Positions 33,723 through 43,226 of a stretch of 46,657 nt of DNA are shown piece after piece (positions within the stretch are counted from its first letter, which is position 1; each line of letters opens with the position of its first letter). The notes under the pieces are model-generated. The model worked only from the letters and a program-made list of their open reading frames with translations, ran no database searches and was not told the DNA's origin. The DNA is from Archangiaceae bacterium (GTDB lineage: Bacteria; Myxococcota; Myxococcia; Myxococcales; Myxococcaceae): positions 1-46,657 of the forward strand of contig JAACJQ010000089.1 of assembly GCA_016879935.1 (NCBI GenBank), given 5' to 3'. The position numbers and the translations under genes are program-made.

Positions 33723-34936
33723 TTCGGCTCCACGAGTCTGATGCGGTGGTTCGAGCCGTCGGACACGAAGATGCGGCCGCTGCCATCGACTGCCACGCCA
33801 GCCGGGAATTGGAACTGCGCCTCGAGCGCTGGCCCGTCCATGAAGCCCTTCACGCGAGTGCCGGCGATCACGCCCAGCACGCCGTTCTCGTCGACGGTCG
33901 CGATGCGGTGGTTGCCCGTGTCGGCGACGACGGCCAGGCCTGCGAGCGGGCCACGGCCTGCCGCGACCCCCCACGCGTTGCGAATGATGCCGCTGGTGTC
34001 TTCCGAGACGAACATCGGGCAGCCGGCGCGCCCCAGCGTGGTGATGGCGCAGCCGGGCTGGAGCTGCATTCGGCGCAGCGCGCAGTTGTAGACGTCGGTG
34101 ACGTAGACGACGCCGGGCGACGCGACGGCGATGCCCGAGGGGCCGTTGAACTTCGCTCCCGTCGCGCTGCCGGAGCACTGGGTGGTGAAGCTGCAGGTGC
34201 CGTCGGTGATCGGCGCCGTGCCCGAGCCCTGACCCGCGAGGGTTCCCGCCGCGCCGCTGCGCAGGTCGATCCACCGAACGCGATTGCCGGAGATCTCGGT
34301 GACGAGCAGGTACGGGTCGGAGAACGCCACCGCCGAAGGCCGGGCGAAGCGTGACGGGTTCGGCGAGTTCAGACACTCGTTCGCCTGCTGCGTGCACGAG
34401 CCCCCGATGACCGACACGACGCCGGCAGGGGTGCGCTGCAGCACGCAGTTCTTGCCCGTGTTGGCGACGTAGACGTTGCCGGAGGGATCGACCGCGACGC
34501 CTTCGGGGCCGTCGAGCGCGGTGCCGCCGCAGGGCCAGTCGTTCGGCGCGAGCGTGCTCACGTTTCCATCAGGGTCGATGGTGCGAATGCAGTTGTTGCC
34601 GGTGTCGGCGACGTAGAGCAGGCCGTTGGAGTCGAGCGCGACCTGCGACGGCGACGCGAGCTGTGCGTCGGCGCCCTTCGCATCACGGAAGCCGCGCGTG
34701 GAGCCAGCGAAGGTCGACACCGTCCATGAGCGGGGGCCCGCATCAGAGGCCATCGTCCCGCCGTCCTGATTCATCGAGCCGGCGTCGTTGACGAGCGGGC
34801 CCACGGCCGTGCACCGATAGGCGATGCAGCAGTTGGCGCAGCCGCAGTTCTGATCGGACACGCACTCGACGCCGAACGGGCTCGAGATCGTGCACGCGCT
34901 CACGAAGGCGAGGAGCAGGGCGAGGCGCGTCACCAT
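33719..34936 (-). CDS. NHL-repeat beta-propeller lipoprotein 1
   Basis: This 405-residue predicted lipoprotein has the lipobox Cys at about 15 (AFVSAC) and a small Cys-rich segment (CVSDQNCGCANCC). A Asp/Gly-rich linker and an NHL propeller with six or more blades follow (ASPSQVALDSNGLLYVADTGN, GPEGVAVDPSGNVYVANTG, GPSGIAVASPGVVYVTD, FPAGVAVDGSGRIFVSDGSN). It is a clear paralogue of the next gene downstream. Its ATG overlaps the caspase-like gene's stop by 7 bp (ATGGTGA), and its own stop overlaps the next ATG. It is therefore tightly coupled within the sigma operon. The ligand is unknown. Confidence 0.87.
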   Translation of the reverse strand: MVTRLALLLAFVSACTISSPFGVECVSDQNCGCANCCIAYRCTAVGPLVNDAGSMNQDGGTMASDAGPRSWTVSTFAGSTRGFRDAKGADAQLASPSQVALDSNGLLYVADTGNNCIRTIDPDGNVSTLAPNDWPCGGTALDGPEGVAVDPSGNVYVANTGKNCVLQRTPAGVVSVIGGSCTQQANECLNSPNPSRFARPSAVAFSDPYLLVTEISGNRVRWIDLRSGAAGTLAGQGSGTAPITDGTCSFTTQCSGSATGAKFNGPSGIAVASPGVVYVTDVYNCALRRMQLQPGCAITTLGRAGCPMFVSEDTSGIIRNAWGVAAGRGPLAGLAVVADTGNHRIATVDENGVLGVIAGTRVKGFMDGPALEAQFQFPAGVAVDGSGRIFVSDGSNHRIRLVEPK

Positions 34937-36252
34937 GTGAACACCGCTCCGAGGCCGAGGGCTGCCGTGAGGCCCATCGAGATGTCCGAGGCGAGCGACC
35001 AGCCGGTGAGCGACCGCGACTCGTCGCCGGTGAGTGGTCGCGAGAGGGAGGCGTAGTCGTTTCGGAGGCTCAGCGAACGGCCTCCCGCGATGGCCCACGC
35101 GATGCCGGTGATGACGGCGGCCCCAGCGACGAACCAGAACGCGGGGCGTGGGTGAATCGGCAGCTCGAAGCCCTTCACGAAGCCGGCGCTGCGGGGCGCC
35201 GACACATACTTGAGCGTCGTGAGGTCGAGCTGCGCGCCCTCGGCCACCGTCACCGGAGCGACGTTCAACTTGTCGGGCAGCACCTGCTTCACGACGTACT
35301 TGCCGGGCACCACCGCCATCGCGAGCGCGTGCTCGGCGTCGGAGTTTCCTTCAGCCACCACGAGCCGCTCGGTCTCGTCGACGACGACGTAGCGTTGGCC
35401 TGCGCCCTTCGGCAGCACCAGCCGCGCGCTCGCCTTCGCGGGCCACGTCACGATCAGATCGCCTTGCCCCTTGAGCTCGTAGCGGAACGCCGGCTTCTGC
35501 GGCACGAGCGTCGCGGCGGTGTCGGCCTCGGTTCGTTGGTGCGCGTAGCGATACGACTCCGAGAGCGTGACCTGCCCGTCTTCGTCGCCATCGGCTGCGC
35601 CGCGCAGGCCCGAGACGAAGTGATGCGTGAAGACCGAGCCCTGCAGCGCGCGCTGCTCTTGCGAGAGCTCGTCAGCGCCGCTCGACGTGAGCACGGCCAG
35701 CCCGCGAACGGTGAGCTCGTCGACGACCTTCACGTCGAAAGGGGCGACCGGCGTTCCACCCTTCGTCGCAAGAATGGCGCCCGCGCGGCACGCATCGAAC
35801 ACGCCGACGCGCACGGTGGCCTGGGTGTCTCGGAGCCGCTGGTACAGCTCGTCGAAGCCGAGCGGCTCTCCGCGCAGGTGCAGCATCGTGCTGTCGGCGT
35901 GACCCGAGTAGTAGACGAAGACGAGTGACGGCCCGTTGCTGGTGCGCGCTGCCTGCCCAAGCGCGTCGAGCTTCTGCCGCACCATCGCCGTGTCGGGCTC
36001 GCGCAACACCGTGACGCGCTCTTTCGGAAACTGGCCGAGCTCGATCAACACGCCCGCGACGCGCTCGGCATCTGACTGCGCGTGGCGCAGCGGCTTGTCG
36101 AGCTCCCAGCCCGAGTTCGCGCCGATGATCAACGCGTAGCGCTCTTCCGCCGACGCGAGCGTCGAAGCCACCAGCACCACCGCGAAGAGCCACCGCACGC
36201 TCGTGCCGTACCACGCCAGAACGCAGCGCCGGAAGGTGGCCACCTGGCTCAC
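34930..36252 (-). CDS. Exported caspase-like (peptidase C14) protein with C-terminal membrane helices
   Basis: This 440-residue protein has a caspase-fold domain after a signal sequence (VRWLFAVVLVASTLASA). ERYALIIGANSGW opens the fold. The catalytic dyad is intact: H118 in VFVYYSGHAD and C155 in VFDACRAG. A DGDEDGQVTLSE loop near 221-232 looks like an EF-hand-type calcium site. A beta domain (about 270-345) follows, then two C-terminal hydrophobic segments (FWFVAGAAVITGIAWAIA and MGLTAALGLGAVF). The signal sequence points to a periplasmic catalytic domain. The GTG start overlaps the upstream anti-sigma gene's stop (GTGA), and the 3' end overlaps the NHL gene. Target proteins are unknown; activity is inferred from the dyad. 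Confidence 0.88.
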   Translation of the reverse strand: MSQVATFRRCVLAWYGTSVRWLFAVVLVASTLASAEERYALIIGANSGWELDKPLRHAQSDAERVAGVLIELGQFPKERVTVLREPDTAMVRQKLDALGQAARTSNGPSLVFVYYSGHADSTMLHLRGEPLGFDELYQRLRDTQATVRVGVFDACRAGAILATKGGTPVAPFDVKVVDELTVRGLAVLTSSGADELSQEQRALQGSVFTHHFVSGLRGAADGDEDGQVTLSESYRYAHQRTEADTAATLVPQKPAFRYELKGQGDLIVTWPAKASARLVLPKGAGQRYVVVDETERLVVAEGNSDAEHALAMAVVPGKYVVKQVLPDKLNVAPVTVAEGAQLDLTTLKYVSAPRSAGFVKGFELPIHPRPAFWFVAGAAVITGIAWAIAGGRSLSLRNDYASLSRPLTGDESRSLTGWSLASDISMGLTAALGLGAVFTW

Positions 36253-36929
36253 TTCACCCAGTCGAAGACGGCCGTCAGCCCCTGTGGTTCTTCGCCGCGC
36301 TCGATCTGTCGAAGCAGCGGGGCGAGCTCGAACGGCTTTTCACTGAACACGGCCCAGACGCGCTCCTTGCCGCGCACGTCGTCGAGGGCGATGGCGCTCT
36401 GCAGCAGCGGCTCCTTCGCCTTGTACGGCGCCGCCTGCTGGCTGCCGAACGGGTGATAGGTCGACACTTTTCCTGCGCCGTCGCGGGAGATCACCGCCAC
36501 GAAGCCATCGGCCGGAGCGGTGATCGAGAACCGCACGTGATCGCCAGGGCGCACCGTCGCGCCGTTCTCGAGGCGCTCGACCGGGTCGTCACCGCGCTGG
36601 CGGAACACGGTCAGCACGACGGAGCCCTTCACCGAATGCTCGGGCTCCACGGGCGGCTGAATGAAGAAGACGAGCATCGCCGCCGCAGCCGCTGCGAGTG
36701 GCAACCAGAGCAACCACCGGCGCTTCGGCTTCTCGAGCTTCGCCGCGAGCGGGCCGGGTGGGTGCCGAATGAGGAACGCTGCCGAGTCGGCGCGGAGCTC
36801 CTCGACCCGGGCGCGCTCTTTCGCAGACTCTGCGATCGCCCGCTCGACCTTCGCGAGGCTCTCACCCGTGAGATCGCCTGCGACGTAGCGCTCGAGCAAC
36901 GCGTCAGGCAGTGGCCGTGGCTCGCTCAT
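36249..36929 (-). CDS. Membrane anti-sigma-like protein with DUF4384-like domain
   Basis: This 226-residue protein has a helical N-terminus (about 1-65; LLERYVAGDLTGESLAKVERAI) like anti-sigma factors but lacking the zinc HxxxCxxC motif. One membrane helix (RWLLWLPLAAAAAAMLVFFI, 71-90) and an outer domain follow. The outer part (VRFSITAPADGFVAVISRDG, STYHPFG, VWAVFSEKPFEL) resembles DUF4384, a beta domain often fused to or encoded beside caspase-like proteins. Its ATG overlaps the sigma stop (ATGA) and its stop overlaps the caspase GTG (GTGA). The proposed role is to hold the sigma factor at the membrane until an envelope signal is sensed; this is inferred from gene order and topology. Confidence 0.78.
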   Translation of the reverse strand: MSEPRPLPDALLERYVAGDLTGESLAKVERAIAESAKERARVEELRADSAAFLIRHPPGPLAAKLEKPKRRWLLWLPLAAAAAAMLVFFIQPPVEPEHSVKGSVVLTVFRQRGDDPVERLENGATVRPGDHVRFSITAPADGFVAVISRDGAGKVSTYHPFGSQQAAPYKAKEPLLQSAIALDDVRGKERVWAVFSEKPFELAPLLRQIERGEEPQGLTAVFDWVK

Positions 36930-37522
36930 GCGGCTCCTTTCGGCGTGAAGCGCTCCGCCCGTTTGTTGGCGCGCTCAGCGAACGCGGCGAGGGCTCGGCC
37001 GACCGTCTTGCGCGAGATGTCGAGCGTCTCGGCGATCTCCGACGTGGTGTGGCCTTCGACGAAGTACAGCATCGCGCACGTCAGCGTCTGTTCGTCTTCG
37101 CCCTTCGTCAGCAACGCAAGATCGTGCGTCGCTTCGACCCGCACCGTTCCTCCGTCACTCGAGGGCAGCTGCACCGTCGGCGCTTCGGCGTCTTCCTCCG
37201 CAGTCAGCGAGCTCAAGCGCCCATGCCATCGCGCGCGCCGTCGCAGGCGGTCGACCGACTGGTACGTCGCCATCTGGTACAGCACCGTGAAGGGGCTCGC
37301 GGCTCCCGTGAGCTTCCCGTCGAGCTTGAAGTAGCCGAGGAACACGTCCTGCGTGACGTCGTGCGCTTCTGCTTCGTCTCCACCGAGCAGTGACTTCGCG
37401 CGCCGAAACACGGCGGGCGCAAACCGGCGGTACAGCTCGTTGAAGCGCTCGGTCGAGGCCGCCATTCGGGCGCAGCCTCGCGCACTCGGACTGAAGCCCC
37501 AAGCTTCTGCTGTCGACTCCAT
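36926..37522 (-). CDS. ECF-type RNA polymerase sigma factor
   Basis: This ~198-residue protein has the two ECF sigma domains. Region 2 is around FNELYRRFAPAVFRRAKSLL and AHDVTQDVFLGYFK. Region 4 is around LTCAMLYFVEGHTTSEIAET and LDISRKTVGRALAAF, a helix-turn-helix. Start choice: ATG 37522 lies 12 nt from the CGA of the upstream GTCCC-N17-CGA element, matching the 13 nt seen at two other genes. ATG 37528 and ATG 37465 (MAASTERF) are alternatives. The stop overlaps the anti-sigma ATG. It likely controls its own operon and the two propeller lipoproteins carrying the same element; this is inference from shared sites. Confidence 0.85.
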   Translation of the reverse strand: MESTAEAWGFSPSARGCARMAASTERFNELYRRFAPAVFRRAKSLLGGDEAEAHDVTQDVFLGYFKLDGKLTGAASPFTVLYQMATYQSVDRLRRRARWHGRLSSLTAEEDAEAPTVQLPSSDGGTVRVEATHDLALLTKGEDEQTLTCAMLYFVEGHTTSEIAETLDISRKTVGRALAAFAERANKRAERFTPKGAA

Positions 37523-37594: not shown

Positions 37595-37978
37595 ATGTTC
37601 CAACGCCTGCTGCCGGTGGTGCTCGTCCTGCTCGTGGGGTGCAAGCGCGAAGCGGTCGTGAAGGAGATCGCCGTAGCCGATGCGGCCGCCCAGTTCCTCG
37701 CGAAGACGGCGACGCCGGTCGACGCCAACACGCCCGAGTACCGCGAAGGCGCAGGGTGGATTCCGGGCGCCGTGCTGCTCGACGACTACCTCGAGTACCC
37801 GGTCTCGGTGCTGCCGGCCGATCACGATCGGCCGCTCGTCTTCTACTGCACGAGTCGAATGTGAACGGCCTCGCATGAAGCCGCCGGTCGGGCGGCGAAG
37901 AGCGGGTGGACGAACGTGTCGGTGATGTCCGAAGGCATGAAGGGCTGGAAGGCCGGCGGTCACGGGGTGAGCCACTGA
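37595..37978 (+). CDS. Rhodanese-like lipoprotein with in-frame TGA, candidate selenoprotein
   Basis: Read through one in-frame TGA (37862-37864, codon 90), this is a 127-residue protein. The N-terminus is a signal peptide with lipobox VGC (Cys 16). A small rhodanese domain follows, with WIPGAVLLDDYLEYPVSVLP and LVFYC, whose C85 is the catalytic-loop Cys. The TGA comes at C85+5, where I expect a second Cys in this subfamily (C-x4-C). The frame then continues as TASHEAAGRAAKSG, NVSVMSEGMKGWK and ends at 37978, exactly like a complete rhodanese. A hairpin with a GGTCG loop follows the TGA. Either UGA encodes selenocysteine, or a TGC-to-TGA change broke the gene. A plain annotation would stop at 37864. 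Divergent from the sigma operon. Confidence 0.7.
37862..37896 (+). other. Candidate bacterial SECIS element (UGA plus hairpin)
   Basis: Twenty-one nt after the TGA, GCCGCC (37880-37885) and GGCGGC (37891-37896) form a perfect 6-bp stem with the loop GGTCG. Bacterial SECIS hairpins lie just 3' of the UGA, inside the coding region, with a small loop containing G near its start. The E. coli fdhF element has a GGUC-type loop at a similar distance. The match is suggestive but short GC-rich hairpins are common here. Confidence 0.5.
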
Positions 37979-41339: not shown

Positions 41340-43226
41340 ATGCGTCTGTCCGCGCTCGCGGTGGCGTCGTTGTGTGCCTGCACCAGCTCGTCTCGGCCCG
41401 AACCGGTCGCGAGCCCTGCGACCCAGAAGCTGAAGGAGGCGAAGGTGGAGAAGAGGGCCGAGCAGCCGCCCCAGAAGAGGGTCGAGTCGATCGCCGATGC
41501 ACTCGCCGCGGTTCAGACCGCGCCGCCGCGCCAGGCCGCAGAAGCTGAAGGCACCGCGCAGAGCGAGGAGCGCCGCCTGCTGGTCGTCGCGACCGCAGAG
41601 AAGGGGCTCAGCGACCCCGTCGGCACTTCCGGAGTCGGGAGCACCGCAGACGTCGGGCTTGGAAGTCGCGCCGTGGGCACGAGGGGCATCACCCATGGGC
41701 TGATTGGGGGCTCGGGGGTCGGGTACGCGATGGGCAAGGGGCTGGGCGGGCTGGGCACGGTCGGCGGAGGTCGTGGGGGCGGCGGCTCGTATGCGCTTGG
41801 CGCGAAGGGCGGCAGCAGCGCGCGCTTCGGCATCGTGCTGGCTGCTCCCGGCGACGGGGTCGACGCCACCGAGTCGTACGGCGACTACGGCGTGAACGGG
41901 TGGACTGTCGCGGAGAAGGATCACCTCTCGACCTTCGCCGCCGACGTCGACACGGCCTCGTACACGGTGGCGCGCCGCAAGATCCTCTCTGGCTCGCTGC
42001 CGCCGACCGAATCGGTGCGTGTCGAAGAGTTCGTGAACTACTTCCGCTACGCGTACCCGCAACCCACCGACGGCGCGCTCGGCGTCACGATGGAGGCCGC
42101 GCCGTCTCCTTTCTCTCCCGGCAAACACCTGCTGCGCGTCGGCGTGCAGGGCAAGCGGCTGACCATGTCGGAGCGCAAACCCGCGCACCTCACCTTCCTC
42201 GTCGACGTCTCTGGCTCGATGCAGTCGGCCGACAAGCTGCCACTGGCTCAGCGCGCGCTCCGCATGCTGGTCGATTCGCTGCACGATGGAGACACGGTCG
42301 CGCTCGTCACCTACGCAGGCGCCGTTCGCCTGGTGCTGCCGCACACCGGCATGGAGAAGAAGGCGCAGATTCACGAGGCGATCGCGTCGCTCACCGCGGG
42401 CGGCTCGACGGCGATGGCGAGCGGCATCGAGCTCGCGTACCAGCAGGCGACGAAGGTGCTCGACGGGCAGTCGCTCTCGCGCGTGGTGATTCTGAGTGAC
42501 GGCGACGCGAACGTCGGCCCGACGGGCCCGCAGGAGATCCTCAAGCTCATCGCCGGCCACGTGAAGGAGGGCGTCACCGTGACGACCGTCGGCTTCGGCA
42601 TGGGCAACTACAAAGACGACGTGATGGAGCAGTTCGCCAACAAGGGCAACGGCAACCACTACTACGTGGACTCGTTGTTCGAGGCGAAGCGCATCTTCCA
42701 GACCGAGCTGGGCGGCACGCTCGAGGTGATCGCCCAGGACGTGAAGCTGCAGGTCGACTTCGATCCCGCGCAGGTGAAGCGCTACCGCCTCATCGGCTAC
42801 GAGAACCGCGACATCGCCGACCGCGACTTCCGCAACGACAAGGTCGACGCCGGCGAGATCGGCGCGGGCCACACGGTGACCGCGATGTACGAGGTCGAGC
42901 TGCAGCCCGGCGCTGGCGATGCGCTGTGTACGGTGCGGGTGCGCGCGAAGAAGCCACGTGGCACCGAGGCCTCGGAGGCGGCCTTCCCCTTCAAGGCCTC
43001 GATGCTCACGAGCCGCTTCGATGGTGCGTCTGACGACTTCCGGTTCACGACGTCGGTGGTGGGCGCGGCCGAGCTCTTCCGTCAGAGCGAACACGCGCGC
43101 GGGTGGAACCTCGACGCCATGCTCGAGATCGCGCGCAGCGCCCGTGGCACCGCAGCCGACCGCGCCGAGTTCGTGTCGCTGCTCGAGCGGGCGCGCCCGG
43201 TGCTCAAGGCCGTCGCGGTTCGGTGA
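41340..43226 (+). CDS. YfbK-family von Willebrand factor A lipoprotein
   Basis: This 628-residue protein has a short lipoprotein signal (lipobox CAC region, Cys ~12-14). A charged helical segment and a Gly-rich linker (about 90-160; GLGGLGTVGGGRGGGG) follow. Then come the conserved YfbK N-terminal domain (STFAADVDTASYTVARR, VRVEEFVNYFRYAY), a vWA domain with metal site DVSGSM starting at D289, and the DUF3520-type C-terminus (LGGTLEVIAQDVKLQVDFD, YRLIGYENR). The family is thought to bind divalent metal and partner proteins at the envelope. An RpoE-like promoter precedes it. Its 3' end overlaps the convergent LysR gene by 23 bp. Confidence 0.92.
   Translation: MRLSALAVASLCACTSSSRPEPVASPATQKLKEAKVEKRAEQPPQKRVESIADALAAVQTAPPRQAAEAEGTAQSEERRLLVVATAEKGLSDPVGTSGVGSTADVGLGSRAVGTRGITHGLIGGSGVGYAMGKGLGGLGTVGGGRGGGGSYALGAKGGSSARFGIVLAAPGDGVDATESYGDYGVNGWTVAEKDHLSTFAADVDTASYTVARRKILSGSLPPTESVRVEEFVNYFRYAYPQPTDGALGVTMEAAPSPFSPGKHLLRVGVQGKRLTMSERKPAHLTFLVDVSGSMQSADKLPLAQRALRMLVDSLHDGDTVALVTYAGAVRLVLPHTGMEKKAQIHEAIASLTAGGSTAMASGIELAYQQATKVLDGQSLSRVVILSDGDANVGPTGPQEILKLIAGHVKEGVTVTTVGFGMGNYKDDVMEQFANKGNGNHYYVDSLFEAKRIFQTELGGTLEVIAQDVKLQVDFDPAQVKRYRLIGYENRDIADRDFRNDKVDAGEIGAGHTVTAMYEVELQPGAGDALCTVRVRAKKPRGTEASEAAFPFKASMLTSRFDGASDDFRFTTSVVGAAELFRQSEHARGWNLDAMLEIARSARGTAADRAEFVSLLERARPVLKAVAVR

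Follow-up and report, generated by a model that had tools for sequence, protein, structure and literature searches.

Described rhodanese selenoproteins and the locus in the window

Five forms of rhodanese selenoprotein are listed in a 2026 review (PMC13188914), with the motifs UxxS (form 1), UxxG, CxU (form 3), UxxG and, in TsoB, UxxxxU. No rhodanese appears in the 2006 selenoprotein list for Anaeromyxobacter dehalogenans (PMC1794560), and the word rhodanese is absent from the deep-Sep paper (PMC12013277). Here we analyzed a stretch of 46,657 nucleotides from an Archangiaceae bacterium (contig JAACJQ010000089.1, hereafter the window), in which the initial annotation had proposed a new selenoprotein, a rhodanese lipoprotein with an in-frame TGA at a cysteine position.

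Among the named families, TsoB (NF045694, a rhodanese/DsbD fusion-like protein) is the closest to the protein encoded in the window. The second selenocysteine (Sec) of TsoB falls in the column of residue 90 of the window protein (U90), at position +5 of the loop (locus L203, FYUAGLTUVRSDSAA). However, TsoB also carries Sec at the position of the catalytic Cys and has a DsbD part of approximately 400 aa, whereas the window protein has one Sec and 127 aa; its match to the TsoB model, restricted to residues 72-125, reaches 31.6 bits against a cut-off of 805, which leaves it outside the family. LYCAU (NF041203, form 3) is, like the window protein, a small rhodanese with Sec in the active-site loop, but its Sec is located two residues past the Cys instead of five; with Sec at +5 and 21.9 bits against a cut-off of 115, the window protein does not belong to this family either. 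Form 1 (WP_010941598.1, from Geobacter sulfurreducens), attributed in the same review to Zhang and Gladyshev (2005), has one Sec in a rhodanese domain, and the U90-TAS segment fits its UxxS motif; judging from this comparison by motif only, form 1 may use the same site as U90. Finally, the C-x4-C homologues, such as BH2092 (PDB 3NHV/3O3W) and a paralogue in the same genome (contig C332), share the fold and the loop spacing but have Cys in place of Sec, and the genes of those examined have neither the UGA nor the hairpin described below.

The window protein scored below every cut-off of NCBIfam 20.0, and when ten related Sec-rhodaneses were compared with the same collection only TsoB itself passed a cut-off, its own. 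The group of predicted lipoproteins with the C-x4-U loop is thus absent from the curated and published lists that were checked, although one old entry, form 1, may be of that kind. Since the site is known from TsoB, and is possibly the same in form 1, we assigned the protein to an already known kind. The proposal of a new selenoprotein therefore holds for the subfamily, but not for Sec-containing rhodaneses as a class, which had already been described.

The interrupted frame encodes a complete rhodanese domain

The features of the locus are summarized in Table 1. The frame contains a single internal TGA, at codon 90, in the loop sequence FYC85-TSRM-TGA90-TASHEAAGRAA. Its product begins with a hydrophobic signal, whose terminal Cys (C16) is kept in the relatives from the same genus, followed by the rhodanese domain. 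When the TGA was translated as Cys, the Pfam Rhodanese family matched residues 40-120 (E = 6.6e-11), and the score of 43 bits against PF00581, with a curated cut-off of 22.2, identifies a rhodanese domain that extends past the TGA.

Table 1. Coordinates of the features of the Sec-rhodanese locus, numbered along the window.
Feature	Position	Strand	Remarks
Predicted Sec-rhodanese lipoprotein gene	37595..37978	+	127 aa including U90; natural stop TGA at 37976-37978
Putative lipoprotein signal peptide, ending in the lipobox-like L-V-G-C16	37595..37642	+	Assigned by eye from the translation
Catalytic-loop Cys85 (TGC)	37847..37849	+	Invariant in alignments
Predicted Sec codon TGA, residue 90	37862..37864	+	5 residues past Cys85; same codon in 17/17 extracted relatives with a TGA, the others have Cys
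Post-Sec coding part: helix 92-102, strand 108-111, helix 114-120	37865..37975	+	pN/pS 0.29; elements from the AlphaFold2 model
Bacterial SECIS-type apical hairpin, GCCGCC-GGTCG-GGCGGC	37880..37896	+	Starts 15 nt after the TGA
VWA/YfbK_C protein gene	41340..43226	+	Homologue directly downstream of the rhodanese in 3 genus relatives (G006, G003, G001)

An AlphaFold2 model built with a 57-row alignment of the family had a mean pLDDT of 93.8, compared with 46.6 when folding was carried out without the alignment. In this model, the helix, strand and helix encoded after the TGA complete the rhodanese fold. The top PDB matches of the model were rhodanese domains, and the matches listed include the polysulfide-sulfur transferase of Wolinella (1qxn). 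These results agree with the first reading of the sequence, according to which the frame continues through the TGA into the rest of a rhodanese fold and the TGA lies five residues after the catalytic-loop Cys.

The TGA codon and the sequence beyond it are conserved

An in-frame stop within an otherwise normal coding sequence resembles a recent nonsense mutation in one genome, and the initial annotation had named a change from TGC to TGA as the alternative to a selenoprotein; according to this explanation, the remainder of the frame would be a relic. A protein search of the genomes of 60 relatives contradicted it. Homologues with 67-74% protein identity, each with one TGA, were found in five other species of the genus, so that the TGA form is present in six species of the genus, including the one studied here, and in 19 verified genomes of the order. 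Among the loci extracted from the relatives, the TGA is at the identical codon in all 17 that bear one, and 13 others have Cys, the residue that had been anticipated for homologues at codon 90. The single internal stops in this column are always TGA and never TAA or TAG. In the alignments residue 90 is always Cys or Sec, and Cys85 is invariant. A second TGA-bearing match in the genome studied (contig C120) was discarded, since its TGA is the natural stop of that gene, and no close relative was found on plasmids.

Comparison of the genus members yielded a pooled pN/pS of 0.44 before the TGA and of 0.29 after it; judged by these ratios, the post-TGA sequence is under purifying selection. Because the codon is conserved and the sequence that follows it is under selection, both a nonsense mutation and a read error are excluded as explanations, and we regard the pseudogene as extremely improbable. 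An error at position 37864 could be suspected from the fragmented assembly (9.5 Mb in 445 contigs), but the TGA is found at the equal codon in independent assemblies, including those of Anaeromyxobacter isolates, which makes this explanation more improbable still.

To look beyond the relatives, the DNA pattern FYC-x4-TGA-xx-S/C-H/R was scanned over 84,980 species genomes and 90 stretches were recovered. The 80 matches listed comprise 12 chance matches and 68 clear homologues, which include two tandem doubles and read FYCx4-TGA-xx[SC]H or a close variant of it. The TGA loci among the matches listed belong to Myxococcota, Acidobacteriota, Planctomycetota, Nitrospirota and Thermodesulfobacteriota, with further ones in bins labelled Deltaproteobacteria, Binataceae or Proteobacteria; the homologues that carry a name are mostly from Myxococcaceae and other Myxococcota, which indicates the phylum of the window. 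This presence in several phyla, at the equal codon, also argues against a mutation confined to one lineage.

In addition, two loci in Desulfarculaceae/Desulfobacterales bins (L054 and L090) contain tandem rhodaneses with one Sec codon per domain, the TGA domains being 315 bp apart. Many C-x4-U rhodaneses with an in-frame TGA were also observed in the phylum of the Pseudodesulfovibrio bin (L163, L165, L174, L177, L189, L192, L195, L198 and L206); they comprise single-domain proteins and multi-domain proteins of 400-450 aa, and those scanned scored below the NCBIfam cut-offs.

A SECIS-type hairpin is specific to the TGA forms

The hairpin located downstream of the TGA, a 6-bp stem with the loop GGTCG, is present in the window as first reported, and its position just downstream of the codon and its G/U-bearing apical loop are those of a SECIS-type stem-loop. 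A predicted ΔG of -10 kcal/mol or lower was obtained for 63 of 73 TGA forms, versus 1 of 28 Cys forms. When the apical energy of each gene was compared with permutations of its synonymous codons, the mean z was -1.51 for the TGA forms and +0.26 for the Cys forms (Mann-Whitney p = 4e-11). The silent third-position pairs of the stem are formed in 81% and 74% of the same 73 TGA forms, versus 46% and 36% of the 28 Cys forms, and a compensated silent change was identified within the genus (GCC..GCG to GCT..GCA).

By itself, the hairpin of the window (apical 24 nt) is not stronger than those of its synonymous permutations (p = 0.12), and its significance comes from the family and not from the window sequence alone. 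The rows of this comparison are related by descent; a tree-aware contrast between the Sec and Cys forms gave three well-supported independent comparisons, 2.4 in the same direction and 0.0 in the opposite one, which agree with the difference between the forms but are too few for significance. The conservation of the hairpin, with compensatory silent changes and in the TGA forms specifically, bears out its interpretation as part of a selenoprotein signature.

The genome encodes the machinery for selenocysteine insertion

The genes proposed for inspection, selA, selB, selC and selD, were all identified in the genome: selA (571 bits), selD (386 bits), a tRNA-Sec with the anticodon tca (UCA), and selB, which is complete over contigs C27 and C58, whose ends overlap in the correct orientation by 87 identical bases. 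The genome also contains the gene of a SelW-like selenoprotein, with an in-frame TGA in a CTAU (CxxU) motif (G000:C290:31108-31314, L248).

Within the order, a selA gene was detected in all 19 genomes whose TGA form was verified. Six genomes have a homologue but no selA above the cut-off, and their homologues are all Cys forms. Given that selA is common in the relatives (49/60), this co-occurrence is a weak test (one-sided hypergeometric, approximately 0.01). In the distant groups, selA was present in 8 of 8 TGA-form genomes.

The presence of tRNA-Sec, SelA, SelB and SelD bears on a further explanation, that UGA is read here as Trp or Cys by near-cognate suppression or through another genetic code. 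However, UGA is a usual stop in this genome, as at the end of the gene itself (position 37976), the SECIS-like hairpin is specific to the TGA forms, and a second and known selenoprotein family, SelW-like, is encoded in the same genome. We therefore consider this explanation to be as improbable as the pseudogene.

Taken together, the Cys found in the column of codon 90, the conserved TGA, the hairpin and the Sec machinery support the selenoprotein reading proposed at the outset. The gene product qualifies as a selenoprotein by each computational criterion applied. From these sequence data, we conclude with very high confidence that UGA90 specifies Sec and that the product is a selenoprotein, and we infer that this insertion takes place in the cell.

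Gene neighbourhood and distribution of the Sec and Cys forms

In the window, two genes separate the rhodanese gene from the VWA/YfbK_C gene. Upstream there are divergent genes for an ECF-type sigma factor, a DUF4384 protein and a caspase-domain protein (34930-37519, minus strand).

In a tree of 101 domains, a minimum of seven changes between the labels Sec and Cys is required on the best tree, and a minimum of three when supported branches are considered. The genome studied has both a Sec copy (contig C439) and a Cys copy (C332), which are placed in separate groups of the tree. At another locus (L109, positions 4868 and 5448) Sec and Cys paralogues adjoin each other, and L059 and L075 show the same arrangement, with the two copies approximately 580-600 bp apart.

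Proposed function of the Sec-rhodanese

The active-site loop of rhodaneses cradles the catalytic sulfur. In the window protein, Cys85 is the first residue of this loop and Sec90 the sixth. We propose that the protein is a periplasmic, lipid-anchored, single-domain rhodanese, whose UGA90 would be decoded by SelB and tRNA-Sec as directed by the hairpin. Most likely, Cys85 and Sec90 would pair a thiol with a selenol and form a selenenylsulfide that they then resolve, which would make the domain a fast redox or sulfane-sulfur relay serving thiol peroxidases or partners of the DsbD type, and not a plain thiosulfate:cyanide sulfurtransferase. We infer this location, chemistry and substrate from the features of the protein and of its relatives.

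The evidence for this role is found in fusion proteins. At four Planctomycetota loci (L065, L096, L105 and L119) a C-x4-U Sec-rhodanese is encoded in one frame with a C-terminal glutathione peroxidase; the peroxidase part has its usual peroxidatic Cys motif intact, and a family match was obtained for L119 (L119:2909-3982, minus strand). Together with the fusion of a UxxxxU rhodanese to DsbD in TsoB, these proteins suggest a periplasmic thiol/selenol redox role. Since glutathione peroxidase and DsbD are thiol-redox proteins, a redox relay is favoured over plain sulfur transfer; redox-relay chemistry in the periplasm, which rests on fusions of relatives and not on the window protein, seems to us slightly more probable than its contrary.

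The main activity of the protein could instead be the transfer of sulfur (or selenium), in the role of a periplasmic carrier of polysulfide or thiosulfate; it would still be a selenoprotein, in which Sec90 would speed up the transfer from a persulfide on Cys85. The rhodanese fold itself, the polysulfide-sulfur transferase among the structural matches and the invariance of Cys85 are in line with this role. On the other hand, the fusion partners found are both thiol-redox proteins, and Pfam searches of the genes adjoining the rhodanese gene did not identify sulfur-oxidation or polysulfide genes; we consider this role rather unlikely, although by no means negligible.

Returning to the redox relay, we tentatively propose, with somewhat less than even confidence, that these proteins represent an undescribed selenoprotein subfamily that extends to at least five phyla and is ancient within Myxococcota. 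Through the Sec at the end of its rhodanese loop (C-x4-U), a sulfurtransferase fold would here become a selenol redox relay in the periplasm for peroxidases and DsbD-type donors, with Sec and Cys copies coexisting in a genome, sometimes adjacent to each other.

Implications

With the C-x4-U rhodaneses, the bacterial selenoproteome gains a widespread group. Annotation pipelines that lack a model for this group would stop the gene at the UGA and report an apparently truncated rhodanese. The occurrence of Sec and Cys forms within one genus, and even within one genome, makes the advantage of selenium versus sulfur in a rhodanese loop directly testable. A thiol-redox role of periplasmic rhodaneses, suggested by the fusions with glutathione peroxidase and DsbD, is likewise open to testing.
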